The notes under the pieces were generated by a model. That model saw nothing but the letters and a program-made list of their open reading frames with translations, was not told the DNA's origin and ran no database searches. Below are positions 28,255 through 45,203 of a stretch of DNA of 45,203 nt, one piece after another; within the stretch, counting starts at the first letter, position 1, and every line of letters starts with the position of its first letter. A program made the position numbers and the translations under genes. This DNA is from a virus: positions 1 to 45,203 of the IMG/VR virus record IMGVR_UViG_3300042876_000075, one strand, 5' to 3'.

Positions 28255-28993
28255 TTATGCAACTTTGAGAACGCCGATTCCCTGGGCATTATCAATAATC
28301 ATACCAAATTGCTGATATAATCTGAATGTCCATTGTGGAGGAACGGGGCGTTGATCGGTCCATTCGCTAGGAATGGCATTACCGAAAGTAACAAACTCAC
28401 CAACATTTTCGCCAATAACGAGAATTTTATCTTCTGGAACTAGCTTGTTATAAGTATCGGGGCTATCATAATCCTGTCTTACTACAACTAGTGGAACGCC
28501 TAGATATTGACCAACCCAACCAGTTCGGCGTAGTTCGTCAGAAATATTCTGAAGCATACCGTCAGTTGAAGAATAGGTATCCCAACCGATGAAAGCCATG
28601 ATTGGCTGTAAAGCCGCACGAGTACCAACAATAGCCTTGGCTCCTGGTGTGGTCTGATTGATAGTTTCAATCATATCGTCTAGAGCGGTTTTAGTTACTG
28701 AAGTACCAACGTTGGTAAAATTATCGGGAGTATTTGTAGCGGTCCAGATTGTAGTTAGGGCGGTGAAAACTTTGTTCATGAAATAATCACGAAGAACAGC
28801 TTGCATCTCACTCTTAATGCTCTGAACAGTACCAATCTCACCTGCCTGAAGTTCCCAATCATTAGCGGTAACAGATACGATAGCACCGTCAAGAATGTAG
28901 TTCATTCTTTCCGATACTGTAATCTCGCTAGTTAGAGGGATAGCGCCAGGAACAAAAGTATGAGCACGAATGCCCTTTCGAACTTTCTTGACT
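28255..28993 (-). CDS. Major capsid protein, exon 2
   Basis: Second exon of the capsid gene. With exon 1 (29830-30002) it gives 912 bases, 303 residues. It begins with the last base of a Leu codon and continues VKKVRKGIRAHTFVPG, then ITVSERMNYILDG, ANDWELQAGEIGTVQSI, and ends GMIIDNAQGIGVLKVA. The TTDFIGLLLN..SMKPGDAL part in exon 1 together with these beta and spine-helix patterns is HK97-fold-like, as in major capsid proteins of many Gram-positive siphoviruses. Neighbours (decoration protein, protease/scaffold, portal upstream) agree. The open frame alone seems to begin at an internal ATG (28905), but coding clearly extends to the 3' splice site. Confidence 0.9.
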
Positions 28994-29829: not shown

Positions 29830-30002
29830 AGGGCGTCACCGGGTTTCATACTTCTAGTATTGAGTAATAGCCCAATAAAATCTGTAGTAAGATGACCGGG
29901 ATCAATATACTCTACCATCATTTCAGCAAAGGCTTCTCGTTCCTTTTGTTCTTTCATTAGAGAAGCTGCTGATTCTAAATATTGCTTTAATTCATTGTCC
30001 AT
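29830..30002 (-). CDS. Major capsid protein, exon 1 (57 codons plus 2 bases)
   Basis: Reads from ATG 30002 (GGAG about 14 bases upstream) to the 5' splice site. The protein starts MDNELKQYLESAASLMKEQK, a helical N-arm, and goes on to ..HLTTDFIGLLLNTRSMKPGDA. Without splicing the frame stops two codons later (AAC TAA), so the fragment is meaningful only when joined to exon 2. It is too short, and broken, to be seen as a gene by itself. Confidence 0.9.
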
Positions 30003-30030
30003 TGAATTTGTAATTCTCCGTTATTTAATA

Positions 30031-30606: not shown

Positions 30607-30623
30607 TGTTATTTTATCCTCAA

Positions 30624-31571: not shown

Positions 31572-31592
31572 AATTCCTCATTAATATATTTA

Positions 31593-31641
31593 TTATACTA
31601 TACTTATAGTATAACATATTTTTATATTTTGACATTGATAT
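31593..31641 (-). promoter_or_regulatory. Candidate leftward promoter with overlapping dyad, before the head genes
   Basis: The 75-base gap before the protease gene is AT-rich and unusually long for this array. On the minus strand an extended -10 (TGTTATACT) lies 17 bases after a poor -35 (ATGTCA). A perfect 9-bp inverted repeat (31593-31601 with 31606-31614, loop 4) overlaps it. It could be a promoter with operator, or only an AT-rich hairpin. Confidence 0.35.
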
Positions 31642-31646
31642 AACCA

Positions 31647-33212
31647 CTAATTAGACCCATTTTTATTGTTACTGGTGTTATTTACATCAGATGGCTTCTT
31701 TTCCGTGGTTGTTTTACCACTTCCTGCTGGACCCTGACCGGGCTGATTACTAAAGGGTTTAGGAGCAAACTCATCCAACCCAAGAGATTCGAGCTTATCT
31801 TTTTCAATCTTTCTTTGTTCAGTTTCATCATTCCAATCGTATCCTAATTCTTCAGCATAAGTAGATCTAGAAATATTAGCACCACCATAAAGATCGGCTA
31901 AGCTCTTTAGAAGTGTAGCATGATCGAATAGTGTGAGTGGTTTAAACTTTACTTCTGGAACACTTTTTATGCTATTTTCTTCAGCAACTCTTCTAACTAT
32001 GGATTGAATAACTTTAATAATCTTTCGTCTAAAGTTTTCCATTGTTTTAGCTGGCGACATCATAGCGTACTGTGGATCTGATGTTCCTGTCTTTTCGGAC
32101 TCGCCTGTAATTAGAATTCTTGGAAATCCTAAAGCATAAATAATATCTTGGTTTACGCTAATATACTTCTGTTCATCTAGCATGGCTTGTGTATCTGGAA
32201 CAACCCATTCGATTTGTAAAGTATGGTTAGCAAACAATTGGAAAATTCTTTCTATATCTTTTCCAGAATAATCTCGCCAAAGCATCTGATCCTTGATCGC
32301 TCCAAACTGAGCATCCTTATCATCTTCTGTTACTGGGAAATCTTTATCACCTAGCTTGAATAATTGAATAGCTCCAATTACTCTAGAGGCAATAGCATAA
32401 TCCATTCTACGTAAGTTACGTTTATGCTTTAAAGATTCCAAAGCTGCGGATAGATAAGGAGTTGGCGTAGGACCATCTGTTTGAACTTTGCGTCTTATAA
32501 TAAGATCGGTATCTTTCTCAATGAGGAATTTTCTGACCCCTTGCTTTATCGCTAAAACAAACTCAGGATATAATGCTAGTAGCTTTTGATAAGCAACTCT
32601 ATCATAAGTACCATCACCATATCTTCCCTCATTTAGAATGAAGTCAACAACTTCAGGAGGAACAAGTAAAAAGTAACTAGGACTATCAGAAAATGGATTT
32701 ACTTTTATTTCTATAGTAGCTGGATCTCTGATATACATAGTAGCAGGTAACATTAGACTATCATATTTCTTTAGCCCATAGATACCTAGATTTTTAATTT
32801 GTTCTTTATTTAATCTCCCGAATTGGATTTCTGGAACTACTAATCCAGAAATTAAATACTCTAAAGCCATGCTCTCCGCAAACTCTTCTAACTTTTCCCT
32901 AAGACCTAAAAAGATTTTATATTCATTTTCAGTAAGACCATTCTTACTAAACATAAGTCTATTAATACCTACCTCTACAAGTTTATTTATTGTAGAGGAA
33001 ACCAGAGGGTCTTTTTTGTAGAAGAATCTGCACGCTTTAACTATCTTATGATAGTCGTCCGTATTGAGTTCTAATTTATCAACATCTGAAGCTGTCCAGG
33101 GATTAGAACTCGTAGAACCTCCTAACGTATTAATAGATGCGGAAGCTAGTTTATTAAATTGTTCCGAAGCTATTAGATCTTCTTTTGTTGCGTCTTGTAC
33201 GGTAATTTCCAT
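31647..33212 (-). CDS. Portal protein, 521 aa
   Basis: Portal of the siphovirus type, coded directly after the large terminase. Readable portal features: KACRFFYKKDPLVSSTINKL near residues 55-75, FAESMALEYLISGLVVPEIQ, a stretch of strands with PPEVVDFIL, the later helix RKIIKVIQSIVRRVAEEN, and a disordered Gly/Pro/Asn-rich C-terminus. Length suits the family. I start at ATG 33212; the longer frame begins at a TTG inside the terminase gene. The result overlaps the terminase stop (33218) only minimally, in keeping with neighbouring junctions. The portal forms the DNA channel and docks the terminase motor. Confidence 0.85.
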   Translation of the reverse strand: MEITVQDATKEDLIASEQFNKLASASINTLGGSTSSNPWTASDVDKLELNTDDYHKIVKACRFFYKKDPLVSSTINKLVEVGINRLMFSKNGLTENEYKIFLGLREKLEEFAESMALEYLISGLVVPEIQFGRLNKEQIKNLGIYGLKKYDSLMLPATMYIRDPATIEIKVNPFSDSPSYFLLVPPEVVDFILNEGRYGDGTYDRVAYQKLLALYPEFVLAIKQGVRKFLIEKDTDLIIRRKVQTDGPTPTPYLSAALESLKHKRNLRRMDYAIASRVIGAIQLFKLGDKDFPVTEDDKDAQFGAIKDQMLWRDYSGKDIERIFQLFANHTLQIEWVVPDTQAMLDEQKYISVNQDIIYALGFPRILITGESEKTGTSDPQYAMMSPAKTMENFRRKIIKVIQSIVRRVAEENSIKSVPEVKFKPLTLFDHATLLKSLADLYGGANISRSTYAEELGYDWNDETEQRKIEKDKLESLGLDEFAPKPFSNQPGQGPAGSGKTTTEKKPSDVNNTSNNKNGSN

Positions 33213-33217
33213 ATTTT

Positions 33218-34774
33218 TTATCCAAACCAACCTGGACTAGCCAGCGTTTTCTTTTGAGATTTATAAGTCATAAAATCATTTTTCAAATAATAAGCTAATA
33301 CAGCACAAAGTAAAGCAGAAGTAAAGTGGTCTTCACCTCTTTTTCCACCCTTATTAGTAACAGTTCTATACACAATATCTCCCGTAGGAGTTTTAGTATA
33401 AGTCATTCTTTCTAGTTCTGTAACTAATTCTAAGTCTGTATGGGAGAATACTAGCTTATGATTATTAGCATAATCCTGTAAAACTGAAGTAGCAAATGGT
33501 TTTGTCTTAGATTTAATTTCTTCGCCATTACCATCTATACCTATAACAAGTGAAGTAGAGAAATCTATTGGAACTACTCTTTTTGAATAGTTTTTGTGCA
33601 TGAAGTCTTGATGCTCCAAAAGGTCCATAACTACTGGTTTGCCTACTCCACCAGCATCAACTCCAATAATAATAGGATTGTATTTGGTATCCAAAGCATC
33701 TATGAAGCTTTTCTGAACTGGATAAGAAACTTTATCTAATCTAATTCTTCCGTGAAATCTAAGCCTTCCAGAATTTTCTAAATATAGAATTATAATAGCT
33801 GTTGGTTCTGTATAACCTAAGTCCACTCCAAGTATTACTTTATCACTCTTATTTGGGATTGGCGGGAAGACTGTAATTCTAGAAACAATTTCATTTAGAT
33901 TGTCTTCTAGTTGTAAACCATTTAGAATTAGTTTATAAACTGGGTCCGATCCAATACTAAACGAAGTTCTATCAAACAAAGCAAATACAGGCTTACCATG
34001 TTGAGCTTTCCACAAGTGGGTAAAGTCATCACTATCTTCTCCCCCATACTGTTCTATAGCTCTCTGCTTATCTGCTTCTGCTAACCTGGGGTTCATATCA
34101 GAACTAATTCTATGTTTAGAATAGTTAGAGTTCTCTCTATCACAATGATAACAAACTGAGTTCTCTCGTCTACCATCTGGAACGCCAGAAACCATAAGTC
34201 TAAACCCGGAAGTAAATGTATTTACTGTAGGTTGTAGTTCTATCCAAGATCCCCAAGGTTGATAACCGCTTTCATCAACAATAAAGAATGGTGTGTGCAA
34301 ACCAATAACAGAAACACCAGTACCAGTTTGACCTGCGATACGGCACATTAATACTGCTTGGTTCAATAATGTAATCTTAAAATCACTACTATTGATACCT
34401 GCATTAGGTTGTATAAAATGTTTTAGAAAAGTATTAGATCTAAATGTTCTTATTAATCCGGACCACACAGGTTCAAGATGTACTTTAGATGGTACTAAAT
34501 AAATAATATAATCGGAGGGGAAAACATTATATACTAAAATCCAGCGAATTATAGAAACTAAAGATACAGTTTTACCAGCACTACGACCAGCTACAACTGA
34601 CACATAAGAATTAAAATCTCCCATCAATTCTTTCTGATACCAAGTAAGTTCGAACTCTTCTTCGTATTTTTGTTTATCAAAGTTTTCTATAAACTCTGTG
34701 CAAAGACAGGGATTTCTTAGTATTTCGTATAATGCTAAATCCTCTGGTCCATATATTTTTTCTATGATTGCCAT
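33218..34774 (-). CDS. terL: Terminase large subunit, 518 aa
   Basis: DNA-packaging motor. ATPase part: Walker A VAGRSAGKT (residues 61-69; Lys68), Walker B FFIVDESG (163-170; Asp167, Glu168), preceded by an adenine-binding-like LTWYQKELM (43-51). Nuclease part, RNase H-like: VILGVDLGY (313-321; Asp318), IIIGVDAGG (368-376; Asp373) and GEDHFTSALLCAV (480-492; Asp482), the three acidic positions expected. A pair of Cys (CYHC, 208-211) lies between. The ATG follows AAAGGATACTC; just before it stands a strong hairpin (34785-34808). Confidence 0.95.
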   Translation of the reverse strand: MAIIEKIYGPEDLALYEILRNPCLCTEFIENFDKQKYEEEFELTWYQKELMGDFNSYVSVVAGRSAGKTVSLVSIIRWILVYNVFPSDYIIYLVPSKVHLEPVWSGLIRTFRSNTFLKHFIQPNAGINSSDFKITLLNQAVLMCRIAGQTGTGVSVIGLHTPFFIVDESGYQPWGSWIELQPTVNTFTSGFRLMVSGVPDGRRENSVCYHCDRENSNYSKHRISSDMNPRLAEADKQRAIEQYGGEDSDDFTHLWKAQHGKPVFALFDRTSFSIGSDPVYKLILNGLQLEDNLNEIVSRITVFPPIPNKSDKVILGVDLGYTEPTAIIILYLENSGRLRFHGRIRLDKVSYPVQKSFIDALDTKYNPIIIGVDAGGVGKPVVMDLLEHQDFMHKNYSKRVVPIDFSTSLVIGIDGNGEEIKSKTKPFATSVLQDYANNHKLVFSHTDLELVTELERMTYTKTPTGDIVYRTVTNKGGKRGEDHFTSALLCAVLAYYLKNDFMTYKSQKKTLASPGWFG

Positions 34775-34784
34775 GAGTATCCTT

Positions 34785-34808
34785 TGGGAGGGATTTTAAT
34801 CCCTCCCA
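34785..34808 (-). promoter_or_regulatory. Hairpin between muramidase and terL
   Basis: An inverted repeat of 11 bp (34785-34795 with 34798-34808) with a minimal T-rich loop, 6 bases beyond the muramidase stop. On the minus strand it is followed by AAAGGATACTC, the terL ribosome site, with no T-run, so it is not a classic leftward terminator. It may stop RNase decay or affect terL translation. Confidence 0.5.
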
Positions 34809-34814
34809 TATTTA

Positions 34815-35867
34815 TTACTTAGATGTAGTTACAACTGGGATAGTAACAGAGTGTGTATGTCCTGCGTCTACCTTAGTTGTTAGTGCGGTGAGTTTTGTTT
34901 CCTGTTCCGCTACTTTAGTTTCTAGTGCTACTACTCTAGCTGTTAGATCTGTAGCTGGTGGGGGTGGGGGAGGTGGAACTACAGTACCGGGATCAAATCC
35001 TAGCCAAGAATATAAGGCTGCTTTAGTTCCATTGTAGAAATTAACATCAGTTCTCCCACTTCCACCGGGAAGAATTAGTGAAGAACTCCATTGTAGAAAC
35101 TTCCAAGTTGCAAAACCGGGAGTAAGAACTTTCATACTAATAGAAGGCATAATAGTAGAAACAACATTAGCCCAAGTTGTATTAGTTACAGTATTGTAAA
35201 CCCATTGAGCCATCCATAAGTTTTTATTAGCTCCGGGGAAAGACAACTGGTCCCTAAGTTTTGGATAATAAGAGTTGTACATACTCATTGAGGAATAAAC
35301 AATTACAGGAACTTGCGACATCTTTGGATCAGCCGCAATAGCTTCCATCATCTTTAGTACAACATCACTTCGATTTGGTTCTGTACCAGTAGCTTCTTCA
35401 ACATCAAGAACAATTGCATGATAGCTTTTCTTTGGAGTTAGTGGGTCTAAAGCTGCGTGAAGAGTTTTCATGTTCCAAGCTACAATACCTTCTAGAGTGT
35501 AATCTGGAAAAAATGGTTGTACATAATGGTAGGGTCCACAAGCTATTTTAGCATCGTAGCATTTCTGCACATTACGATAAAGCCAATCATCAACATAGTT
35601 ATTAGCATAAGTTGGATCACCAGCTTGTACTTGTTTGCCATCCGAAGCTTTTGGAAACACCATTGAAATGTCTCCTTCTGCTTTCATCTTGGCAATATCA
35701 ACATCACCTTGCCAATGTGAAATATCAATTTGTCTGGCTAAAGTCGTTGGATCAAGAGTACCAATTAGGGTAGGCTCTTCTTTCATTCGCCATAGATTAT
35801 AGCGATCAATTAGGTTTAGCTTACCAACCTTAGCATCTCTGGTCCAGGTATCAAGATATTTAGTCAT
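34815..35867 (-). CDS. GH25 muramidase (endolysin or virion lysin), 350 aa
   Basis: Glycoside hydrolase 25 domain, about residues 42-290: QIDISHWQGDVD (Asp48) at the N-strand, KIACGPYHYVQPF, and the catalytic VLDVEEA (Asp155, Glu157). It cleaves the beta-1,4 bond between MurNAc and GlcNAc in peptidoglycan. A seven-Pro linker (298-304) leads to a short coiled coil (LTARVVALETKVAEQETKLT, 308-327) and an end with GHTHSVTIP. There is no SH3, LysM or choline-binding wall anchor. Position just upstream of terL, next to a small structural protein and far from the membrane-protein genes, leaves open whether it acts as endolysin or is carried in the virion. Confidence 0.88.
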   Translation of the reverse strand: MTKYLDTWTRDAKVGKLNLIDRYNLWRMKEEPTLIGTLDPTTLARQIDISHWQGDVDIAKMKAEGDISMVFPKASDGKQVQAGDPTYANNYVDDWLYRNVQKCYDAKIACGPYHYVQPFFPDYTLEGIVAWNMKTLHAALDPLTPKKSYHAIVLDVEEATGTEPNRSDVVLKMMEAIAADPKMSQVPVIVYSSMSMYNSYYPKLRDQLSFPGANKNLWMAQWVYNTVTNTTWANVVSTIMPSISMKVLTPGFATWKFLQWSSSLILPGGSGRTDVNFYNGTKAALYSWLGFDPGTVVPPPPPPPATDLTARVVALETKVAEQETKLTALTTKVDAGHTHSVTIPVVTTSK

Positions 35868-35876
35868 AAGTCTCCT

Positions 35877-36161
35877 TTATACGTTAAGAACTATCCAGCT
35901 TACTTTTTGTCCATTGACTGAAGAATCAACATAAATGTCTTCGAGTCTGCCAACTAATTCAAATCTAACTTCATTACCTGCTGATAATACGAATCCGTTT
36001 GTACTAGTTACATCGTTAACTCCATCGTTTCCAACATAGATTAGTCCACTATTAGTTGCAAAAGCTTTTACGATTAGTGCGTCATTAATAACGCCAGTAC
36101 CTAAAACTACAGCAGTTCCAGCAGTAGTTACTGTAGTCTGTCCACTTAATTGTTTACTCAT
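35877..36161 (-). CDS. Small phage structural protein, 94 aa
   Basis: Beta-rich protein with the pattern TTAGTAVVLGTG, ALIVKAFATNSGLIYVGNDG, VTSTNGFVLSAGNEVRFELV, seen in small phage virion proteins of unknown exact role. It starts inside the end of the GT2 glycosyltransferase gene (8-base overlap) with ACGGAG upstream of the ATG. A decoration or fibre-tip role is possible. Confidence 0.6.
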   Translation of the reverse strand: MSKQLSGQTTVTTAGTAVVLGTGVINDALIVKAFATNSGLIYVGNDGVNDVTSTNGFVLSAGNEVRFELVGRLEDIYVDSSVNGQKVSWIVLNV

Positions 36162-36804
36162 TATTTACTCCGTTGTAAGGTGTTTTATATTCTTCCTTTC
36201 CAGGTAATCCACCCCACTTTTTTTGATAATTATTTTGTGCAATTCTAAATTTATTATGATGATCTTCCATTTCTCTAGAAGAATAGTTCTTTAGGGTAGC
36301 GCTTCCAAAATGACCACAAGAGCAGTTATGTACTCTGTGGATTTGATAACCTAGAAGCTCCATTCTATAAGCATAGTCATTATCTTCAAAGTAAGCATAA
36401 CCAGGAGAAATGGATTCATCAAATAATCCAACAGTATTTACTAACTCATCTCCAATAGTAAATAAAGAAAAGGAGCTAGCTTCTAAATCCCTAGTACAAG
36501 TTATTTGATTTCCTTCATACTCTGCTAAAAGATTTCTTAGTGTTTCTGGATGAAAGAAAATATCATCATTACAAATAACTCTTACTTCTTCCGTATAATT
36601 AATAAAGTAATTCCAGCTTTTAGCCACACCTAAGTTATAACCAAATTTTACAACTTCTAATTTTGGTAATTTTAAATCTAAACTTCCACCATTGTCTATT
36701 ACTAAATATCTGTCTGGTTTTATAATACCGGCTTCAGCAGACTCTAAGCATCTCTTCAAAAGATCGTATCGAGAAAGCGTGGGGATGCAGAGTGTTATTG
36801 TCAT
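36154..36804 (-). CDS. GT2-family glycosyltransferase, 216 aa
   Basis: GT-A inverting glycosyltransferase. The nucleotide-binding start is MTITLCIPTLSRYDLLKRCL, followed by YLVIDNGGSLDL, then FGYNLGVAKSWNYFI and the metal-binding VICNDDIFFHP (Asp-Asp). ISPGYAYFEDNDYAYRMELL contains the acceptor-side E-D-x-D-Y motif typical of rhamnosyl-/galactofuranosyl-type GT2 enzymes. Compact at 216 residues. It overlaps both neighbours by a few bases. The presence of a UDP-galactopyranose mutase in the same island makes galactofuranose a reasonable, unproven donor. Confidence 0.85.
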   Translation of the reverse strand: MTITLCIPTLSRYDLLKRCLESAEAGIIKPDRYLVIDNGGSLDLKLPKLEVVKFGYNLGVAKSWNYFINYTEEVRVICNDDIFFHPETLRNLLAEYEGNQITCTRDLEASSFSLFTIGDELVNTVGLFDESISPGYAYFEDNDYAYRMELLGYQIHRVHNCSCGHFGSATLKNYSSREMEDHHNKFRIAQNNYQKKWGGLPGKEEYKTPYNGVNNE

Positions 36805-38003
36805 AATTGATTACCTCCGATCCCACCCACTAAATATTTAATTTGGTGAGTGAGAACATATCTTGCTCCTGCATTTCTACAAGCATCGAGAAATGCAAAA
36901 TCCTCAATTGCGCCCTTTGGAAATTGTATATTATTCTTTATAACAAAATCCGTTCTTACAGCAAAGCTAATTCCAACATTACAACTAATTATGTCATTTA
37001 TATAAACAGGAGGTTGAGTATTACCTGTCTTGACATCACGATAAGTAAAGATAACTACATCATTATTTTCTACATATTGTCTTAGTGTTACTAAATAATC
37101 TTCAGCTAGCCAATCATCATCATCACAAAATGCTATCCAATCAGTAGTTACTAACTTCATAGCTTCATTTCTTGTTAGTCCAGCAGAGTTTTGTTGCTCA
37201 CATTTAGTTATTAGAACGTGGTCATTATCACACTCATAGTTTATATCTCTACCATCAAACATAACAATAGCTTTCCAACTCCAATCTGTTTGATTTATAA
37301 AAGATTGCACAGTTCTTGGTAATGTTTTACGACCTATTGTCGGGGTTACAAATGTACAAAATGTAGGCTCAGCAACTTTAAATTTCTTTCTTGTAAGGTG
37401 TTGATCGAACCTCTCTAAAAACACTTGATTAGAATCCATTCTTCTTCCTTGAATATCCGAGTAAGAATCTCTTTGTCCCGCCAGTAATGGTACAGATACA
37501 TAGCAATTATAATTTGGAATTATTTCATAAGCCATTCTAACATCATTATGAACGGTCTTCGTATCCTCATTTAGTTCTATAAGAGTATCAAATAATGTTT
37601 TATTGATTGCATAAGCGTGTGTAGAATACCCACCATTTATCTTGGCTAGATGGTAATTAACTTGCGTTGCACTATATCTATCCATATTTATTCCAAGGTA
37701 AAAAAGATCCCAATCAGTAGGTAAATCCACCCTTTTCAAAATTAGCGGATCATTTAGCCACTCAACATCATCTTCAAATATCAAAACATTTTCGCAATTA
37801 TTTTCTTTGGCTTTTTTTATACAAGCGGCGTGACTTAGGTGGTTCCCTCTAGCTGTAGCATAAGGAAGGTTGTATGCTGAAAATCTTTCGACTTTATCTA
37901 GTATTCCAGCTTTTTCAAATTCTTTTTGAGCTTGTTCCCAACGATCTACACGCCTATCTAAATTGATGCAAAATATCTTTGAAAATTTATCGAATGGGTT
38001 CAT
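36801..38003 (-). CDS. GT25-GT2 fused glycosyltransferase, 400 aa
   Basis: Two transferase domains in one chain. Residues 1-195 are of the GT25 (LPS galactosyltransferase-like) type: KIFCINLDRRVDRWEQAQKE, NHLSHAACIKKAKENN and VLIFEDDVEWLND. Residues about 200-400 are GT2: FVTPTIGRKTLPRTVQSFIN, KAIVMFDGRD, WIAFCDDDDWLAEDYLV (Asp-rich metal site), and IEDFAFLDACRNAG. I start at ATG 38003 (AGGA six bases upstream), not 38027, which lacks a good site. It overlaps the isomerase gene by 17 bases and the next by 4. A single chain may add two sugars in sequence. Confidence 0.85.
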   Translation of the reverse strand: MNPFDKFSKIFCINLDRRVDRWEQAQKEFEKAGILDKVERFSAYNLPYATARGNHLSHAACIKKAKENNCENVLIFEDDVEWLNDPLILKRVDLPTDWDLFYLGINMDRYSATQVNYHLAKINGGYSTHAYAINKTLFDTLIELNEDTKTVHNDVRMAYEIIPNYNCYVSVPLLAGQRDSYSDIQGRRMDSNQVFLERFDQHLTRKKFKVAEPTFCTFVTPTIGRKTLPRTVQSFINQTDWSWKAIVMFDGRDINYECDNDHVLITKCEQQNSAGLTRNEAMKLVTTDWIAFCDDDDWLAEDYLVTLRQYVENNDVVIFTYRDVKTGNTQPPVYINDIISCNVGISFAVRTDFVIKNNIQFPKGAIEDFAFLDACRNAGARYVLTHQIKYLVGGIGGNQL

Positions 38004-38475
38004 CTCCAATCCTATCAATAATCTCATGTAAAACCTGAATATGTTTGTCTTCTGCTTTCCTCATATCTGAGATTGGAACATGAATAACATAATCAACCAT
38101 GTTTTTTAATTCTCCCCCATCAAAACCAACAATAGCTATAGTCTTTACTTTACCTCGCATAGCTTCAGTAACTTTTAGTAAATTTACACTATTACCACTA
38201 CCACTAATAAGAACTAGTAGATCTTGCGCTGTCCAAAACAACTCCATAAAATTTCTGAAGATATTATCATAACTATCATCATTTGCAGTAGCAGTAATAA
38301 AAGGAACGTTATCTGTAATACAGATAGATTTTATTCCACAAGCTTTTATTAAATCCTGCGTAAAATGTGATGCTGCTGAAGAGCTTCCACCATTTCCACA
38401 GGTATAAACTATACCTCTGCAATTAGCTATCATAGTAGCTACATTGTCAATATCAAACGCAATATTATATCCCAT
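37987..38475 (-). CDS. gmhA: Sedoheptulose-7-phosphate isomerase-like SIS protein, 162 aa
   Basis: SIS-domain sugar isomerase. The phosphate-binding IVYTCGNGGSSSAASHFTQD (residues 22-41) and the second loop LLVLISGSGNSVNLLKV match phosphoheptose isomerase GmhA, which makes D-glycero-D-manno-heptose 7-phosphate from sedoheptulose 7-phosphate. The C-terminal EDKHIQVLHEIIDRI holds the His/Glu residues of the family. I start at ATG 38475 with AAGGA nine bases upstream; an ATG seven codons earlier is weaker. It overlaps the heptose kinase gene by 11 bases, which supports a shared pathway. Confidence 0.85.
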   Translation of the reverse strand: MGYNIAFDIDNVATMIANCRGIVYTCGNGGSSSAASHFTQDLIKACGIKSICITDNVPFITATANDDSYDNIFRNFMELFWTAQDLLVLISGSGNSVNLLKVTEAMRGKVKTIAIVGFDGGELKNMVDYVIHVPISDMRKAEDKHIQVLHEIIDRIGDEPIR

Positions 38476-39394
38476 TGTAAATAATCCTTGTCCCATAATT
38501 TGTAAACCTAAACGGGAGTTGTTTATAATCTTTCATCTTATCTAAGAATAGGTCTTGTAGATCCTTTGGAACATAAGATAAAAGAAATCCTCCCCCACCA
38601 GCACCTAAAATTTTATATGCCATAGCTCCACTTGATTCAGCGATGCTTATCATATTTTCTATTTCTGTATTTGAAATACCATCAGCTAGTTGTTTCTTTA
38701 TTGCCCAACCATTTCCAAGAACATCACAAATATGTTCTTGATTAAACTCTTTAGCTAATTTGGTTAGCTTTTTATATAACTCTTCTTTTCCTTCTATACT
38801 AGAAGCTTGCTCTTTTAGAATATCATTAGCATTTCTAGTTATACCTGTGTAATGCAAAAACAAGTTATCGTCTGAAAGTTTTACAGGTTCGTGATAAGGA
38901 AGATCGTTAGAAAACGATAGTCTAAGCTGTCCACCAAAAGAAGAGAACATATGATCCTGCATTCCAGCATTTCTACCTAAAACATACCTCTCTATATAAA
39001 ATGCTTGATAAGCTAAGTGAGAGTGTTCTTTCGGATTATTCTGATAATGATAAAAAGCATTTAGTAACCCAACTAAAACAGCACTAGAAGATCCTAAACC
39101 AGAGCCTTGTGAAGGAACATCAGCCATAGTTTTTACTTCAAATCCTTTGGTCATTCCTGTAGCTTTCGCAGCTTCTCTAACTAAATCGTGTTGAATTTCT
39201 TCTACAGAATCTACAGTTTCTTGCTTAGAATAACCAACAGAAATCTTATCATCAAATCTATTATTTACTATTACATAAATATATTTATCTATTGATGATC
39301 CAACAACACAACCTTCATTATGCTCAAACCATTCTGGTAAATCAGTTCCCCCACCTATAATAGACACCCTTAATGGGGTTTGCGAAATAATCAT
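38465..39394 (-). CDS. hddA: GHMP kinase, heptose-7-phosphate kinase-like, 309 aa
   Basis: GHMP kinase of the HddA type, which phosphorylates D-glycero-alpha-D-manno-heptose 7-phosphate at O1. Motif 1: ISQTPLRVSIIGGGTDLPEW (residues 3-22); ATP-binding motif 2: PSQGSGLGSSSAVLVG (94-109); motif 3: KILGAGGGGFLLSYV. Length is normal. Together with the adjacent isomerase it covers two steps of the GDP-heptose route; a bisphosphate phosphatase and a nucleotidyltransferase are not in the window. ATGA-type overlap with the mutase gene before it. Confidence 0.85.
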   Translation of the reverse strand: MIISQTPLRVSIIGGGTDLPEWFEHNEGCVVGSSIDKYIYVIVNNRFDDKISVGYSKQETVDSVEEIQHDLVREAAKATGMTKGFEVKTMADVPSQGSGLGSSSAVLVGLLNAFYHYQNNPKEHSHLAYQAFYIERYVLGRNAGMQDHMFSSFGGQLRLSFSNDLPYHEPVKLSDDNLFLHYTGITRNANDILKEQASSIEGKEELYKKLTKLAKEFNQEHICDVLGNGWAIKKQLADGISNTEIENMISIAESSGAMAYKILGAGGGGFLLSYVPKDLQDLFLDKMKDYKQLPFRFTNYGTRIIYNGI

Positions 39395-40434
39395 AATTCA
39401 TCCTTTACAATCTTTAATGCACTAGCTAATGCTTTATCCATATCTAGGTAAGCGTAAGTTCCCAATCTTCCAGCAAAAATTACAGAATCATTTTTTATTT
39501 CTTTATATTTATTATAAAGACTTTTACTTTTTTCTGTATCTATTGGATAGTAGGGAGGTCCGTAATCTGATGCAAACTCTGTAGCAGTTACTTTTTCTGC
39601 TCTATTTTGCGGATAAAAATAGTTATAAGTTATTTGCCTTGTGTACTTAATATCTTCACTAGTGTAGTTTATAGTAGCTGCTCCCGTATCTTCATCGGAG
39701 TATGTGTGATACACACTTCTGTATGGAAGCGTACCATAAATATATTTATAATACTGATCTATAGATCCGGTATAAATAGTTTTACTAGCTATAGTTTCAT
39801 AGTTATACTGTGTATCAAGTTTAACTTCTATCCCATCTAATAGCTTATTAAAAAAGTAATCATATCCTTGCTCAGGCATTCCTTGATAAAGGTCGCTAGA
39901 GTATCTATCATCATAAGTAAATCTAATAGGAATTCTACTAATCAATTTTGCGGATAACTCTTTAGGTTCTACTCCCCAATGCTTCTTTGTATATCCATAG
40001 AAAAACTTATAATATACTTCTTCTCCAACCATAGATAAAACCTTTTCTTCGAAGTTAGTTGGAACTATATTTAGCTTTACACTTTCTATTTTTGCTTTAG
40101 CTTGTTCCGGTGTAATGGTTCCCCAAAGCTGAAAAAATGTCAGCATATTTATAGGGAAAGAGTATATGTTATCTTTGTAATTTACTTTAACTCTATGATA
40201 ATAAGGAGTAAAAGGGCAGATATTATTTACATAATCGTAGATACTTTTGCTATTCGTATGAAAGAAATGACCACCATACAGATTTACATGAACACCATTT
40301 ATATCTTTAGAAAAGCAATTACCGCCAACATGATCTCTAGAATCTATAACTAGTACTTTTTTACCTAGCTTGTGCATTTCATGGGCTATCACAGATCCGG
40401 TTATTCCAGCACCTACTATTAAATAATCATACAT
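39391..40434 (-). CDS. glf: UDP-galactopyranose mutase, 347 aa
   Basis: Flavoenzyme interconverting UDP-galactopyranose and UDP-galactofuranose. The FAD-binding start YLIVGAGITGSVIAHEM (GxGxxG at residues 8-13) is followed by VLVIDSRDHVGGNCFS and NLYGGHFFHT, typical of Glf. KHWGVEPKELSAKLISRIPI and, near the end, VIFAGRLGTYAYLDMDKALA (active-site Arg and FAD pyrophosphate contact) are conserved parts. I start at ATG 40434 with GGGGGT six bases upstream; the longer frame runs into the previous gene. It implies galactofuranose in the product glycan. Confidence 0.93.
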   Translation of the reverse strand: MYDYLIVGAGITGSVIAHEMHKLGKKVLVIDSRDHVGGNCFSKDINGVHVNLYGGHFFHTNSKSIYDYVNNICPFTPYYHRVKVNYKDNIYSFPINMLTFFQLWGTITPEQAKAKIESVKLNIVPTNFEEKVLSMVGEEVYYKFFYGYTKKHWGVEPKELSAKLISRIPIRFTYDDRYSSDLYQGMPEQGYDYFFNKLLDGIEVKLDTQYNYETIASKTIYTGSIDQYYKYIYGTLPYRSVYHTYSDEDTGAATINYTSEDIKYTRQITYNYFYPQNRAEKVTATEFASDYGPPYYPIDTEKSKSLYNKYKEIKNDSVIFAGRLGTYAYLDMDKALASALKIVKDEL

Positions 40435-41059
40435 GATAAACCCCCAAGTGTTTTCCATATCTATATAGCTTATAGTTTTCTTTTGGTAATATAGCGTTAA
40501 ACCACCAGGAGTTTAGCATTGGCATATGCGTATCTGGAATAATATCGTGAACACAAATAAAACCACCGGGATGCAAATTATCTTTAATAAGATCATAAGC
40601 GTACTGCATTGACTCTGCTAAATCAAAGTCCAATAAAACATAGTGATACTTGTAATCTCTCTTTTTAGTTTTATTGTTTACTAGTCCTTCGATTAGTTCA
40701 AAATTGCTAAATGATTTTTCCAACTCACTTTGTATATATTTTTTTGATAACTTATCTTTTCCTAGCTTCTGATACCACCCATCCATAGCTGTAGCTTCAG
40801 GAGAGTTTTCATCCTTTGCTAAAAATCCGGGATGATTAGTAAAGGTATCATAACCTAATACAAATCCTTTATCTTTCCATATAGAACATATTTGTTCTAT
40901 ACCACCACCAAAAGCAACTCCGAACTCCACCCCATATAATTGCTCATTTGGAAACTTATCTAGTAATGTGTATTGAATATGAGCTAAAAGCTTACTATCT
41001 CCGTTTGTATCATTAATATTAAACATAGTACTTGTGCCTAAATAATACTCTTTCGCCAT
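40427..41059 (-). CDS. TylF/MycF-like class I methyltransferase, up to 210 aa
   Basis: SAM-dependent methyltransferase pattern: LYGVEFGVAFGGGIEQICSI (motif I region), GYDTFTNHPGFL (acidic post-strand 2), and HYVLLDFDLAESMQYAYDLI with GGFICVHDII, similar to TylF/MycF sugar O-methyltransferases. It may cap a sugar with a methyl group. The start is uncertain: ATG 41059 gives a 41-base overlap with the preceding gene and lacks a ribosome site, ATG 41026 gives the short overlap usual in this array but also has a weak site. Confidence 0.7.
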   Translation of the reverse strand: MAKEYYLGTSTMFNINDTNGDSKLLAHIQYTLLDKFPNEQLYGVEFGVAFGGGIEQICSIWKDKGFVLGYDTFTNHPGFLAKDENSPEATAMDGWYQKLGKDKLSKKYIQSELEKSFSNFELIEGLVNNKTKKRDYKYHYVLLDFDLAESMQYAYDLIKDNLHPGGFICVHDIIPDTHMPMLNSWWFNAILPKENYKLYRYGKHLGVYHV

Positions 41060-41768
41060 TTACATACATTGTGTGGTCAGCTTCAAATGACATATCAGGT
41101 TGTGATCCGTTGTGTGGGTGAGAGTGAAAACTAAATGGTAATAAACTAACATTACAAAAAGAATATATAGCACAGTTTATATACCATTGTTGCCTCGCCA
41201 TATGATCTGTTACTTTTGGATATTTATTATATATCTCATAGGTAAGCTCATAAATTCTTTTATAAGTTTTTGTAGTACAAATTATTACACCAACATTAAG
41301 CGTAGCTGAGTTTTTGTTTATCCCGTACTCACTAAATAGAGAATTTAAATACTCGTCGCTACAATATCTATTTAGACCATTAGCTTCATTCAGTAAAGTG
41401 TTGTTTGAATGGGTAGCATTTGGTCCTATCAAAACTTCATCATGCTTTACATTAGAAACTTTATTTAGTTCTTCGTTTGTAAAAGCTCGCTGTAATCTAA
41501 TGTCTCCGTCTGTAAATATAATTATATCGTCATCATTAAAGGAGACGTAAGGTAGGAACTCTCCTGCTTGGACGCACGGATTAGTTGTAATATCAGTAAG
41601 AGAATCTTTAGGAATTGATTTATAAGTTATATTATCAAATTCCGAATCTTTGCTAAATCCAACACATAATAGAATATTTTTAAAAGCAGAATACTTATTA
41701 ATAGTTTCTAGATATGGATAAATTTTTGGGTAGTACTTTTCATCTGTTCCTGTAATTAAATAGATCAT
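41019..41768 (-). CDS. Putative GT-A-fold glycosyltransferase, 249 aa
   Basis: The start MIYLITGTDEKYYPKIYPYL and the metal motif IIIFTDGDIRLQ (Asp-Gly-Asp) with SATLNVGVIICTTKTYKRIY downstream are typical of GT-A transferases of the GT8/GT77 kind acting on nucleotide sugars. The C-terminus has DHMARQQWYINCAIY and FHSHPHNGSQPD. The enzyme class is fairly likely; donor and acceptor are unknown. It starts with AGAGGATAGG just upstream, one base after the stop of the gene before it. Confidence 0.65.
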   Translation of the reverse strand: MIYLITGTDEKYYPKIYPYLETINKYSAFKNILLCVGFSKDSEFDNITYKSIPKDSLTDITTNPCVQAGEFLPYVSFNDDDIIIFTDGDIRLQRAFTNEELNKVSNVKHDEVLIGPNATHSNNTLLNEANGLNRYCSDEYLNSLFSEYGINKNSATLNVGVIICTTKTYKRIYELTYEIYNKYPKVTDHMARQQWYINCAIYSFCNVSLLPFSFHSHPHNGSQPDMSFEADHTMYVNGERVLFRHKYYV

Positions 41769-41769
41769 C

Positions 41770-42426
41770 CTATCCTCTGTAATTATGAATGGTATACTTA
41801 CGCTCTACTTCGTTGATAGAAGATGCTGGTATATTATACTTTACTTGCAGGTTCGTAAGAATACTCTGATCTCTGCTGTGCCTTATAACATGATCGTCTC
41901 GTTCTCCTAACGGATCATCTAACAGCACTAGATAGTTCGAGCAGTAGTTATTCCACTCCTGTAATAAGCTTTCAGTAAAGGGAGATTTTATAAATCCAAT
42001 CTGTCCAGCATCTAATTGTAGCGTATCTTTATACTTGTCTTCGTTGCACTCCATATACTTGAAACAGAAAGTTTTTGTCCAGTATCTATTTACAAAATTG
42101 CTTGTAATAAAAAAAGTATCCTGTCTAATTCTACTTTTTATAAAAGATAGGTAGCCTGGTAATATCTTATCTCCACAATCAAAATAAACTAGCAAATCTC
42201 CCGGATCTATTTTAAGAAATAAATCTAAAATTATGTATGGTTTCCAAACGCACCCACCATTCTTTAAAGAAGTTAGAGAGTGTTTTTGATATTCGTAAAA
42301 ACCACTATCAATTAGAAATTGCTTTTTATATGGAACTTTATAATCAAACTCGTTACACTCTTTTAGTATTTCTTCTTGCTGGTTCTCGTAGTTTTCATCA
42401 GCATAACAAGTAAAGTATGTTTTCAT
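41770..42426 (-). CDS. Putative glycosyltransferase (nucleotide-sugar type), 218 aa
   Basis: The stretch GGCVWKPYIILDLFLKIDPG followed by DLLVYFDCGDKI and, later, LQLDAGQIGFIKSP and IRHSRDQSILTNL is the pattern of small GT-A-like sugar transferases found in capsule and phage glycan clusters. Asp-Cys-Gly in place of the usual Asp-x-Asp is a variant metal site. It overlaps the preceding methyltransferase-like gene by 4 bases. Substrate unknown. Confidence 0.65.
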   Translation of the reverse strand: MKTYFTCYADENYENQQEEILKECNEFDYKVPYKKQFLIDSGFYEYQKHSLTSLKNGGCVWKPYIILDLFLKIDPGDLLVYFDCGDKILPGYLSFIKSRIRQDTFFITSNFVNRYWTKTFCFKYMECNEDKYKDTLQLDAGQIGFIKSPFTESLLQEWNNYCSNYLVLLDDPLGERDDHVIRHSRDQSILTNLQVKYNIPASSINEVERKYTIHNYRG

Positions 42427-42932
42427 ATGTGTGCTATAAGTACATCTTTGTCTGTGTAACCATCTGCATATTCTATTACATATTGTGGATTTATTTCTAA
42501 CAATTTATTAACAATAATATCTTCTGAAACATTCCACAAAGCTTTAAATAATCTAACATCATCTATTATTATAGTATGTGTTTTTACTGGATGGGTTGCT
42601 ATAATTTCTAGTTCTTTATAGATTGGGAAATCAAAAATACCTCTAGTCTCGTCCTCGTCTAAATCCCAATGACCGTCTAGATAAAATGTTATTTGCTCTT
42701 TTATATTGCTTATAACTTCAGAAAGCTTCTCTGCTGAGTCTCCGAAGACTAAGGTTACATTTTTATTATTTCTAAATCTATTTACACAATGTCTAAAATA
42801 CTTATCTGTAATCTCTATAGAGATTACATTTCTAAATCCAGCATCTATAGCTGACTGAATTCCATTACCATAATAACTACCAGTTTCTACAAAGTAATTA
42901 TTTTTATATAAATCAAATTTGCTAAATGGCAT
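42423..42932 (-). CDS. Class I methyltransferase-like protein, 169 aa
   Basis: Rossmann-type pattern: YFVETGSYYGNGIQSAIDAG (SAM-binding loop), FRNVISIEITDKYFRHCV (acidic end of strand 2), VTLVFGDSAEKLSEVI and ITFYLDGHWD. This resembles small SAM-dependent methyltransferases linked to glycan clusters. I start at ATG 42932 with GAAAGGATAAAA directly upstream; the longer frame reads back into the preceding gene. Substrate unknown. Confidence 0.65.
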   Translation of the reverse strand: MPFSKFDLYKNNYFVETGSYYGNGIQSAIDAGFRNVISIEITDKYFRHCVNRFRNNKNVTLVFGDSAEKLSEVISNIKEQITFYLDGHWDLDEDETRGIFDFPIYKELEIIATHPVKTHTIIIDDVRLFKALWNVSEDIIVNKLLEINPQYVIEYADGYTDKDVLIAHI

Positions 42933-43506
42933 TTTTATCCTTTCTAAAAACAAAGATAGTAAAGCCAAACCACCAGCAGGGATTAGGATAACCAGCACAA
43001 CTGTATCTAAGTGTTATTGTAGAATCTTCATCATACTTATAACCTAGCTTGGTAAACTTATCAATCACATAAGAATTTTCTTTTGGATTTACATGCCCAT
43101 CCCCACCGAAAGTAGGAATAGACCAACTGATAACAATACCCTCTGTATTATGTCTATGAAGATTATCAATGAAAACATCTTCAAATTCTTCTGGAATATG
43201 TTCTGCTACTTCTAATGACATAACCCAATTAGCTTTTCCAAACTCTTGCGGAACAGATAAATCAGCTACATAACAATTATCACCAGCTAATTCTTTGGTA
43301 AACGGATTACCGTCATAACCTTCACACAACATACCACCGTAATTATTTAGATAATGCGTATAAAATCCATTTCCGCATCCTAAATCAAATACTAAATCTG
43401 CGTTATTCTTTGAAAAAAATCTAGCTAACTCTTTTGCTAACCCAAGATCTACCCCGTGAGGTAAACCTTCTTTACCTTCCCAATAGCCCCGTTCATTTAT
43501 TCTCAT
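42922..43506 (-). CDS. Class I SAM-dependent methyltransferase, 194 aa
   Basis: Clear motif I LVFDLGCGNGFYTHYL (residues 37-52), then GYDGNPFTKEL, VMSLEVAEHIPEEFEDVFI (the EVAEH post-I motif) and GIVISWSIPTFGGDGH. It follows the pattern of methyltransferases that act on sugars or small molecules. I start at ATG 43506 with GAAAGGATTTCAAT upstream, giving a 4-base overlap with the fucosyltransferase gene. Function beyond methyl transfer is unknown. Confidence 0.85.
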   Translation of the reverse strand: MRINERGYWEGKEGLPHGVDLGLAKELARFFSKNNADLVFDLGCGNGFYTHYLNNYGGMLCEGYDGNPFTKELAGDNCYVADLSVPQEFGKANWVMSLEVAEHIPEEFEDVFIDNLHRHNTEGIVISWSIPTFGGDGHVNPKENSYVIDKFTKLGYKYDEDSTITLRYSCAGYPNPCWWFGFTIFVFRKDKNAI

Positions 43507-44234
43507 ATTGAAATCCTTTCCCACCCAGGAGGAATACGATCTTCTATCGTTTCTCTAGGTTCATTATAGGCCCAAACGTTAGGAGACACCACTGGTTTAT
43601 CTTTAGCTAACCAAGCGGCCCACCAAGAGAACGAACTATTAGCAATAATAAATCCTGCGTGTTTTGACATATAAAAGAAATCTAATACTGGATCATTCTG
43701 TGGATTTTCAATAACGAATGTACAAGTATCATTATCAAAGTTTTGTTTACACCACTCAATGTCATCAGAGAATATCTTGAATTCTTTTCCGGGAAATAAT
43801 TTCATAGCCTTATTATAATAATCCATTGTAAGATTAGGATGAATATGACCAAGAGACAAATAATCAGTTCTTCTAACATGAATTGCTATTTGATCTAGAC
43901 CGTGATCATTTGTTTCGATTATTGGTTCAAAAAAATATTCTATTAAATCTTTACAATGTTCAAAGTATTTATAGCTTTGAAAATAACCTTGTAAATCATG
44001 ATCTACAAAATCTTTTAGGGTGGTATCAACATATCCAGAAGATAACTCTGGTACTCTTCTAGTTGGTTTCTTTTGATTATATAAGGGTAAAGAATGTTCA
44101 AAGTATTTTTGATATTCCCACTCCGAGAATCCAAAGTCTTGATTATTTTTAATAGCTATACCTATAGTGCTAGCTATTTGCCAAAGTTGATTTCCGAATC
44201 TGCCAAATTTTCCTAACTGACTAAACGTAATCAT
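43503..44234 (-). CDS. Alpha-1,2-fucosyltransferase-like GT11 protein, 243 aa
   Basis: GT11 signatures are all visible: GRFGNQLWQIAS near the N-terminus, IAIHVRRTDYLSLG (the H-x-R-R-x-D-Y motif), FKIFSDDIEWCKQNF, and GFIIANSSFSWWAAWLA. These enzymes move fucose, or a similar sugar, from GDP-sugar to galactose. Length is a little short but complete. It opens the sugar island as its first transferase, 4 bases overlapping the small 65-aa gene. Confidence 0.9.
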   Translation of the reverse strand: MITFSQLGKFGRFGNQLWQIASTIGIAIKNNQDFGFSEWEYQKYFEHSLPLYNQKKPTRRVPELSSGYVDTTLKDFVDHDLQGYFQSYKYFEHCKDLIEYFFEPIIETNDHGLDQIAIHVRRTDYLSLGHIHPNLTMDYYNKAMKLFPGKEFKIFSDDIEWCKQNFDNDTCTFVIENPQNDPVLDFFYMSKHAGFIIANSSFSWWAAWLAKDKPVVSPNVWAYNEPRETIEDRIPPGWERISI

Positions 44235-44428
44235 AAGTTATCCTTTCTTGGGTAATAGCTATCAGGCCATTCGATAGTTTCCCTTCCTACATTTTCGTTT
44301 AAAATACAAGGCCCAACAAAGCATAGGGTGTCAAAACATGCGTTTACAGCAAGCTGTTCATCATCAAAAACTCCGATGAATTCCCAATAATCCATATCTA
44401 ATACTCTACCTACTACCCATAGTTTCAT
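44231..44428 (-). CDS. Small hypothetical protein, 65 aa
   Basis: Acidic, Trp/Cys-containing protein (KLWVVGRVLDMDYWEFIGVF, DEQLAVNACFDTLCFVGPCI) resembling small phage proteins with a beta-strand-helix design, whose function I do not know. GTGAGGTAAAC precedes the ATG. It is placed between terS and the fucosyltransferase gene and overlaps the latter by 4 bases. Confidence 0.6.
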   Translation of the reverse strand: MKLWVVGRVLDMDYWEFIGVFDDEQLAVNACFDTLCFVGPCILNENVGRETIEWPDSYYPRKDNL

Positions 44429-44430
44429 GT

Positions 44431-45126
44431 TTACCTCACGCTTTCTGGTAATAATTCTTTTCTATTACTACCGCCCATTTCTAAAATTTCCTTAGCTGTA
44501 TAAGCTTTAGTGAAATTACATTGTTTATCATCGTCTAGAATTCTAGTACAATGAACTACTATTTTAGATTTTACATCTTCTGGTTTCATCCACCAAACAG
44601 TTGCTAAAAGAGTTCCGCAATTTTCACAAATAATGTACTGCATCTTCTGTTGATAAAACTGTTGTGCTTTCTTTTTTAGATCCTCGATAGTATTTAGTAC
44701 AGAAGCTTCTTTATCGTTCTTTCTACTTTTCCTAGTAATACCTAGATCATCTTGCATTTCAGAAATATCATTACGAAGAGCTTTACAAACATTGTTCAAT
44801 TCTCTAACAATAACAATGTTATTATTGTTAAACCCTTCTTTAGAAACTAGCATTAGCTGTGCTTCATAATCTTCTAGTTGCAACATAGCATTGATTAGAT
44901 TTTTTAGAATAACTCTATCATTTGGTAACATCTCCGATAGATCATATTCTTCTTCAAATTGTTTCATCAAACGATCATACTTTTCTCTAATAACACTATC
45001 TCTACTCGCTCCAAAAACTAATTGAGAGTATGCTTCACTAAATTCTTCTTCTGGCATTTCTCTATATTGTTTTAGAGAACGTAATTTATTTCTGCTTGGT
45101 GCATGTCTTTTGTTTTCTGGTTCCAT
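44431..45126 (-). CDS. Probable terminase small subunit with zinc finger, 231 aa
   Basis: First leftward gene of the window. N-terminal 60 residues are charged and helical, the middle (about 65-165) is a coiled coil, and the C-terminal part has four Cys (Cys167/Cys170 in ICENCG and Cys193/Cys203) that may hold zinc. Small terminase proteins of some Gram-positive phages have such helical and zinc-binding parts and lie at the head of the late array. The large subunit is almost 10 kb away. The assignment is by layout and composition, so moderate. A good promoter and AAAGGA box lie upstream. Confidence 0.5.
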   Translation of the reverse strand: MEPENKRHAPSRNKLRSLKQYREMPEEEFSEAYSQLVFGASRDSVIREKYDRLMKQFEEEYDLSEMLPNDRVILKNLINAMLQLEDYEAQLMLVSKEGFNNNNIVIVRELNNVCKALRNDISEMQDDLGITRKSRKNDKEASVLNTIEDLKKKAQQFYQQKMQYIICENCGTLLATVWWMKPEDVKSKIVVHCTRILDDDKQCNFTKAYTAKEILEMGGSNRKELLPESVR

Positions 45127-45149
45127 AAATTATATCCTTTCATTATTTA

Positions 45150-45177
45150 ATTATAACATAAAATCTAATAAAGACAA
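45150..45177 (-). promoter_or_regulatory. Sigma-70/sigma-A-type promoter of the late array
   Basis: On the minus strand TTGTCT (45177-45172), a 16-base spacer ending in TGT, and a perfect TATAAT (45155-45150) with the extended -10 TG. Transcription would start near 45143, leaving a short leader with AAAGGA (45140-45135) before the ATG at 45126. Confidence 0.75.
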
Positions 45178-45203
45178 GTTAATAACAATTATTCTATGTC
45201 AGA

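Follow-up and report, generated by a model that had tools for sequence, protein, structure and literature searches.

Why a phage should carry some eight kilobases of glycan-building genes between two genes of its packaging machinery is the question raised by IMG/VR virus record IMGVR_UViG_3300042876_000075, positions 1 to 45,203, the whole of which 45,203-nucleotide stretch we refer to as the window. The genes concerned form an island of 8,081 bp (36154-44234) between a gene for a small-terminase-like protein (TerS-like) and that for the large terminase (TerL), and a first-pass annotation of the window had proposed that they serve either to make and attach the phage's own glycan or to rebuild the host surface late in infection. 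The coordinates given there for the island proved exact, and the interpretation as a whole is partly supported. Between its terminase genes the phage appears to have a slot for exchangeable glycan genes, of which the island is one filling, and of the two proposed uses we lean, with slightly better than even confidence, towards the first: a short, branched, partly methylated glycan whose assembly on a putative virion-protein acceptor would take place in the cytoplasm.

The window is contained whole, in reversed orientation, in a phage contig (IMGVR_UViG_3300044712_001034, here G001; 94,079 bp) at 99.85-100% identity, and G001 looks complete and circularly permuted because its ends carry a 189-bp repeat with one mismatch. 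A TerL search of 50,697 phages returned two distant records, one being GX15bay. Relatives were found as IMG/VR loci by portal alignment (79), by TerL alignment (24) and by a scan with the GT25-GT2 gene of the island (78), together with a single one from a scan of a species-genome collection, the contig of which is binned in a metagenome-assembled genome (MAG) titled Brevinema andersonii, which is no proof of host. TerL was recognised in 96 loci, falling into 57 lineages (defined by clustering the DNA from TerL to portal at 90%; designated L below) with the window's own included.

TerS-like and TerL genes are both visible in 24 of the 57 lineages; the other 33 show no TerS-like gene, many of them being known from contigs that end early. 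The search for the island in related phages that the first-pass annotation had suggested found the gap between the two genes filled in 16 of the 24 (3.2-9.9 kb), mostly with glycan-type genes, and in the remaining eight the genes abut (-3 to +4 bp); without the window's lineage the figures are 15 and 8 (n = 23). The L112/L113 lineage stands outside the 24, and its filled slot is no independent evidence because it was found solely through the scan with an island gene. Inserts of more than 3 kb in the next eleven core-gene gaps, from TerL to the gene g134, number 0/57, 0/51, 0/50, 0/48, 1/36 and 1/31 in the first six and 0/31, 0/20, 0/18, 0/14 and 0/13 in the last five. The direct adjacency of TerS-like homologues to TerL in 8 of 24 lineages is also the basis of the small-terminase label: the 231-amino-acid (aa) TerS-like gene that forms the upstream border of the slot (44431..45126, minus strand) has no PHROG match and reaches the cut-off of no Pfam family, and the name given to it in the first-pass annotation stands on synteny. 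The downstream border, TerL (33218..34774, minus strand), is matched by phrog_2 (1.8e-13).

Open reading frames (ORFs) of at least 100 aa, called with a simple ORF caller, number 114 in the 16 filled slots; by cluster, 28 of them are classed as glycosyltransferases, 18 as sugar enzymes and 26 as methyltransferases, with 5 further enzymes, 2 lysins and 35 that have no assignment. Clusters of the first three classes thus supply 72 of the 114 genes (62 of 102 without the window), a count whose weaker members are the methyltransferases at 42423-42998, 40427-41059 and 42922-43524 with their relatives, the GT4 of L038/L044 (under cut-off) and the 41770-42426 family (assigned by fold alone). Glycos_transf_2 is matched in 22 of 37 records, one being a bacterial MAG. 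The first-pass placement of a glycan-type gene set within the late virion block is upheld, with other glycan sets occupying the same place across the lineage. The largest slot family, C00 (31 members), yielded no Pfam or PHROG match (one member searched in each), a best PDB profile match of 0.037 and no profile match to the GT2 family. Glycan-type genes also occur elsewhere in three of the eight empty-slot lineages (L079, L078 and L108), lying in L079 just upstream of TerS, with one GT2 relative recognised; in L109 and L077, likewise empty, none was recognised in 24.6 and 13.6 kb, respectively, and L074, L103 and L080 make up the eight.

What fills the slot differs even between close relatives. 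The nearest, L020/L111, has a TerL 81% identical to that of the window and keeps seven of the eleven island genes in the same order (GT11 52%, methyltransferase 64%, GT-A 31%, HddA 69%, GmhA 63%, GT25-GT2 66% and GT2 58% identical), and in mid-slot it carries a GT2, two FkbM-cluster proteins and an epimerase, where the window has UDP-galactopyranose mutase (UGM) and three others. The slots of L038/L044 hold a weak GT4, an RraA-like protein, NeuB, a TylF-type methyltransferase, a second methyltransferase and a CMP-sugar transferase, and other slots a C-methyltransferase, an epimerase, an aminotransferase, and GT10 or TET-associated glycosyltransferase (TAGT). Mapped on a TerL tree built quickly from 54 lineages, of which 47 bear a label and 7 are uncounted (12 of 51 inner branches weakly supported, L064 and L106 on long branches), the slot labels, which are single-family types set by the analyst, require 15 changes against a minimum of 5, a number as low as which was reached in none of 200 shuffles. 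The empty state accounts for 3 changes, while the GT11/GT25 type requires 8 changes for 9 rows, with 240 of 500 shuffles as low, and hence shows no clustering. These change counts indicate that slot content is inherited for a time and often exchanged. As a separate observation, relatives of the NeuB module (L038:2361-8442, and in L044) lie on the opposite strand of the L078 contig, ~20 kb upstream of TerL.

A further glycosyltransferase gene stays in place while the slot contents change. This core gene, of GT-B fold and GT4 type (25976..27145, minus strand), sits between head and tail genes, so that glycosyltransferase genes stand within the virion structural block itself; it is present in all 31 lineages covering its neighbours, in some in part, and is kept in all eight empty-slot lineages. 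Residues E286 and E294 of its EX7E motif, which we take to be the GT4-type motif, are invariant in 24 sequences, and PF00534 matches 23 of the 24, the window's copy falling under cut-off. The predicted structure (predicted local distance difference test, pLDDT, 94) has a GT-B fold and aligns best to B736L of chlorovirus NY-2A (Z 38.8 over 363 residues, root-mean-square deviation (rmsd) 2.7, 19% identity; next 35.0), and a profile of the family likewise finds the B736L structure 3oy2 first (E 7e-39; next 4e-6). B736L binds GDP-mannose, its acceptor not being established in the available part of the source (PMC9614988). Among deposited phages, relatives of the core GT4 occur in 13 records. That of S-CBS4 lies in the head block with a galactosyltransferase and a methyltransferase, and that of TJE1 ~2 kb upstream of TerS with a methyltransferase, an epimerase and a nucleotidyltransferase; such placement of glycan genes in packaging or head blocks favours a virion role. 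Independently of this, the nearest relative carries a second insertion (L020:16828-19528), bounded by its g128 homologue on one side and its core GT4 on the other, which encodes a 562-aa protein and a protein 34% identical to the 94-aa one encoded next to the window's island.

Gtr/serotype-conversion cassettes comprise a membrane flippase and membrane glucosyltransferases. A simple hydropathy scan of 213 slot or upstream proteins (upstream genes being included where TerS is not visible) found none with two or more hydrophobic segments and six with one; there is accordingly nothing like a flippase, a polymerase or a Gtr-type set among them, and the genes are most simply explained by a glycan assembled on a protein in the cytoplasm. 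A cellular precedent exists in the cytoplasmic glycosylation of flagellin in Caulobacter (PMC7591256, consulted in part). On this proposal the island enzymes would be produced late, alongside the virion proteins, and would use host sugar nucleotides in the cytoplasm, converting some of them (UDP-Gal to UDP-Galf; a heptose phosphate). The GT2, GT25-GT2, GT11 and GT6-like transferases would attach sugars to a virion protein, methyl caps would be added, and on a protein of the capsid or tail the core GT4 would begin the chain or lengthen it, so that exchange of the island would alter the coat sugar and leave the virion proteins unchanged. A candidate acceptor is the product of a major-capsid-like gene whose main part lies at 28255..28905 (minus strand); it is 46-83% identical within the lineage and 26% in GX15bay, and its PHROG matches are only to families without assigned function.

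Several observations pull the other way. Virion glycosylation is predicted here from genes; 35 of the 114 slot genes carry no assignment, and the classes of the others come from Pfam on one representative per cluster, some under cut-off. The glycan genes of L078 lie ~20 kb upstream on the other strand, and L108 has one GT2 26 kb downstream, so that the linkage of glycan genes to the terminase is not obligatory, and the relative of the core GT4 in phage S-EIVl stands near a primase gene and not among virion genes, which weakens a strict virion-block rule for that transferase. Finally, among the sugar enzymes that are exchanged, several belong to kinds usually met with in surface-polysaccharide synthesis.

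This last point leads to the alternative that survives best, namely that the island remodels the host surface (lipopolysaccharide, capsule or teichoic acid) late in infection, whereby progeny would stick less to debris or other phages would be excluded. UGM, HddA, GmhA, NeuB, epimerases and FkbM enzymes, all present as families in the slots, are characteristic of surface polysaccharides. Moreover, similar cyanophage islands have been taken by their authors for cell-wall genes, those of S-SCSM1 being so read in the accessible part of PMC9602691. The proposal sits poorly with the location of the island among packaging and head genes and with the lack of any multi-spanning protein in the scan described above. 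Phage_integrase, the one recombinase family searched for, has no match in any of 15 records, whereas all 14 controls gave one, which makes lysogenic conversion by that integrase type unlikely, and lysogenic serotype conversion is disfavoured by the two absences together. We judge host-surface remodelling improbable, if still deserving of serious attention.

It was also conceivable that the slot is a general cargo site, in which glycan genes are one kind of cargo of mixed or selfish role. The 35 unassigned genes, the two lysins and a D12 DNA methyltransferase in L104 are what such a site might hold, but the predominance of glycan-type genes (72 of 114) is not, nor is the recurrence of one GT2 family, that of the island gene 36154-36804, upstream of TerL in 23 lineages and immediately before it in 15, nor the fact that G001 and its relative G002 have seven of eleven genes in common order at 31-69% identity. 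We consider this account a poor prospect.

Poorer still is the idea that the transferases decorate phage DNA by forming hypermodified bases, as in T4 or the TET phages: the slot does lie next to packaging genes, the TerS-like gene of G001 does have a C5-cytosine methyltransferase gene just upstream of it (L007:8162-9154, just past the window) and the relative L113 does carry a TAGT, but the methyltransferase occurs in only 2 of 37 records (among the 36 others only G002 matches, partially), TAGT exceeds its cut-off in 1 of 37 and also matches 2 of 14 cellular controls, Tet_JBP is found in 0 of 37 with a silent control, T4-type glycosylation is rejected because no dCMP hydroxymethylase (thymidylate-synthase/hydroxymethylase family) was recognised in any of 15 records, with 9 of 14 controls giving a match, and we know of no heptose, furanose or nonulosonate enzyme from DNA modification. 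That the island consists of chance ORFs is ruled out by its Pfam and PDB matches and its conservation.

A recent silent insertion, which the first-pass annotation had named as an outcome that would count against it, was likewise not borne out, given the gene conservation between G001 and G002 and the ratio of non-synonymous to synonymous rates (dN/dS). The latter is 0.14-0.34 for the seven shared island genes (one not computable) and 0.05-0.27 for a set of thirteen virion-block genes that includes TerS, TerL and portal (again one not computable), these being rough values with dS near saturation and with g117 and g133 the genes that could not be computed. In selection, and in the G+C content of third codon positions (0.19-0.31 in the island, 0.20-0.34 in ten virion genes), the island is like the virion genes, and it is apparently under purifying selection.

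Returning to the favoured reading of a virion glycan, we offer a bolder form of it tentatively, regarding it as the less probable case. The phages would possess a modular coat-sugar system in which a fixed, chlorovirus-like GT4 is combined with exchanged glycan programmes of galactofuranose/heptose/fucose, C-methyl-sugar or nonulosonate type, much like bacterial O-serotypes, and in the window GT11 and the GT6-like transferase might together build a blood-group-like fucosylated unit on the virion.

The island itself consists of 11 ORFs, all on the minus strand, that cover 99.99% of it and overlap their neighbours by 4-77 bp or leave a 1-bp gap; the first-pass description of consecutive, overlapping genes was thus sound, its count of ten was not, and its own list sums to eleven. 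From the TerS-like side the first is a GT11 of alpha-1,2-fucosyltransferase type (43503..44234; PF01531, 3.4e-22), with relatives in 102 phage records, for the most part cyanophages. It is followed by a class I methyltransferase-like gene (42922..43524; PF13489, 0.0011, under cut-off), 64% identical to its homologue in L020, and by a marginal methyltransferase-like gene (42423..42998; DOT1 0.054, Methyltransf_4 0.18), whose hydrophobic N-terminus falls within the 77-bp overlap and whose real start is probably downstream of the called GTG. With a Methyltransf_24-like gene further along (40427..41059; PF13578, 1.4e-4, under cut-off; no PDB match), these make up the three methyltransferase-like proteins of the first-pass annotation, two now with weak matches and one marginal.

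Of the two further transferases claimed there, one is backed by a predicted fold. The product of 41770..42426 has no Pfam match even at E up to 1, but its AlphaFold model (pLDDT 89) is predicted to have a GT-A fold and aligns best to GT6 enzymes, namely BoGT6a (Z 14.9, 185 residues aligned, rmsd 2.9, ~8-12% identity) and the blood-group transferases; the top Foldseek matches are other GT-A enzymes (E ~1e-4), and the capsid glycosyltransferase 2p72 of PBCV-1 is matched weakly (E 0.001, rank 25). The substrates of GT6 enzymes are fucosylated galactosides, and the pairing of this gene with GT11 is therefore suggestive. Relatives of the two adjoin in cyanophage P-TIM68, and a relative of 41770-42426 accompanies GT11 in each of the four slots where a GT11 relative was seen (L037, L043, L111 and L110, the last being the contig of the window itself). 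GT6 genes have been reported in two cyanophages (PMC3961637, consulted in part). The other claimed transferase (41019..41768) is a possible one by a DGD motif read by eye, repeated searches including Pfam and NCBIfam having given no significant match.

The sugar enzymes follow. UGM (Glf; 39391..40458; PF03275, 4.7e-48; E. coli UGM, 5e-89) aligns over its full length to 1i8t with the FAD motif and keeps both of two arginines that are presumably active-site residues, and it has relatives in 88 phage records. Next are a GHMP kinase resembling the D,D-heptose-7-phosphate kinase HddA (38465..39394; best PDB match 3k85, 1e-29) and an SIS isomerase resembling the sedoheptulose-7-phosphate isomerase GmhA (37987..38496; 1x94, 7e-21). 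The first-pass names thus agree with the nearest families, but the substrates are not certain because all three proteins fall under the NCBIfam equivalog cut-offs: UGM narrowly (282 vs 304 bits), the isomerase clearly (94 vs 209 bits for TIGR00441) and the kinase far under (126 vs 600 bits for NF049969, at 2.6e-36). In all six phage copies of the isomerase compared, Asp moreover replaces a Glu of 1x94 that we take to be an active-site residue. Neither a GmhB phosphatase nor an HddC nucleotidyltransferase was recognised among the 11 island proteins with Pfam and NCBIfam (the rest of the genome was not scanned), nor were GDP-fucose genes recognised in the island. The lack of GmhB and HddC there and the Glu-to-Asp change make the sugars uncertain, and galactofuranose, heptose and fucose as parts of the glycan are guesses. 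The last two genes are a GT25-GT2 fusion (36801..38027; PF00535, 8e-12; PF01755, 4e-7, the GT25 match spanning 27 residues), whose homologue is split into two adjacent genes in L037, L043, L048, L091, L099 and L113, and a GT2 (36154..36804; PF00535, 3.4e-7); both assignments, like that of GT11, agree with the first-pass annotation.

The island does lie between the terminase genes as claimed, and three further ORFs share the gap, the minus-strand order from TerS-like to TerL being a 65-aa ORF (44231..44428; no Pfam match), the eleven glycan-type genes, a 94-aa ORF (35877..36161; no Pfam or PHROG match) and a GH25 lysin (34815..35867; PF01183, 3.3e-15). As to the first-pass suggestion of a promoter shared with the virion genes, the number of promoter-like sites in 30000-45203 is what chance would give (58 against an expected 65.4), and the island contains no terminator-like site on the minus strand. 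Beyond TerL follows the portal gene (31647..33230, minus strand), so named for its synteny and because it is 23% identical to the portal annotated in GX15bay. TerL is 863-923 aa long instead of ~517 in L018 (10001-12772), L046, L068, L074 and L089, where the interrupting insert is perhaps an intein. A LAGLIDADG endonuclease ORF (29013-30002) is flanked by a 59-aa ORF and the 216-aa ORF at 28255-28905, which together match one 300-aa gene in relatives; this is an intron-like interruption of what is probably the capsid gene, and the site has no Rfam match. Outside the window, the left arm of G001 (L005:8969-15439) groups Amidoligase_2, GATase_6, ATP-grasp and COOH-NH2-ligase genes, possibly a second modification pathway, of which only GATase_6 exceeds its cut-off, and the class II ribonucleotide reductase gene of G001 (L006:2444-5098) has intein-splicing and HNH domains.

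To our knowledge virion glycosylation is documented for few phage systems. Here the virion genes stay constant while the content of a single locus varies, and in some relatives that locus is empty, which would allow a direct comparison of how coat sugars affect adsorption, host range, the stability of particles or their recognition by antibodies. The occurrence of NeuB/CMP-sugar, UGM and heptose-type genes beside packaging genes also suggests that, in metagenomes, the label 'auxiliary metabolic gene' may in some cases be misapplied to such genes. Judged by titles and abstracts, no description of a glycan island between terminase genes was found in the open-licence PMC literature, and within that literature the lineage-wide exchangeable slot with its fixed core transferase appears to be new. 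The identified gene classes are not: the first-pass statement that no described phage system with this combination is known is not borne out in that form, comparable sets being present in T4-like cyanophages, in Cr30 and, from what is accessible of its description, in Corndog.

The T4-like cyanophages S-SM2, S-SCSM1, SynMITS9220M01 and P-TIM68 combine GT11, GT25, GmhA, HddA and methyltransferases in various sets, but in genomes of 190-229 kb and with no terminase gene annotated in the stretches viewed. Caulobacter phage Cr30 has GmhA, HddA, a glycosyltransferase and an epimerase together, but no UGM, GT11, methyltransferase or terminase annotated within the 16 kb viewed. GX15bay, which has the nearest TerL in the phage collection, carries seven glycan genes, six of glycosyltransferase type and one methyltransferase, whose end lies ~1.6 kb upstream of TerL; that TerL is 23% identical and the gene content is otherwise different. 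Tetrasphaera phage TJE1 has its core GT4 relative, methyltransferase, epimerase and nucleotidyltransferase ~2-7 kb before TerS, but was missed by the TerL search and differs in its other genes. The chloroviruses PBCV-1 and NY-2A build capsid glycans with virus-encoded transferases and methyl groups (PMC9614988), and the core GT4 is nearest to a protein of one of them; they are, however, viruses of algae. In mycobacteriophages glycans occur on capsid and tail tube (Freeman 2023, as cited in the available part of PMC12619734), and the cluster O phage Corndog, a precedent for the favoured reading, has an O-methyltransferase, two glycosyltransferases and a putative N-acetylglucosamine (GlcNAc)-transferase in its virion operon, which its authors suggest could modify the capsid (PMC4351075, likewise in part). 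Corndog differs in that portal and protease flank its set of only four genes, among which the accessible text names no sugar-nucleotide enzyme, whereas the window has eleven, swapped among relatives, that include UGM and the HddA- and GmhA-like enzymes; it is alike in that its glycosyltransferase and methyltransferase genes stand within the virion gene block, as they do here.

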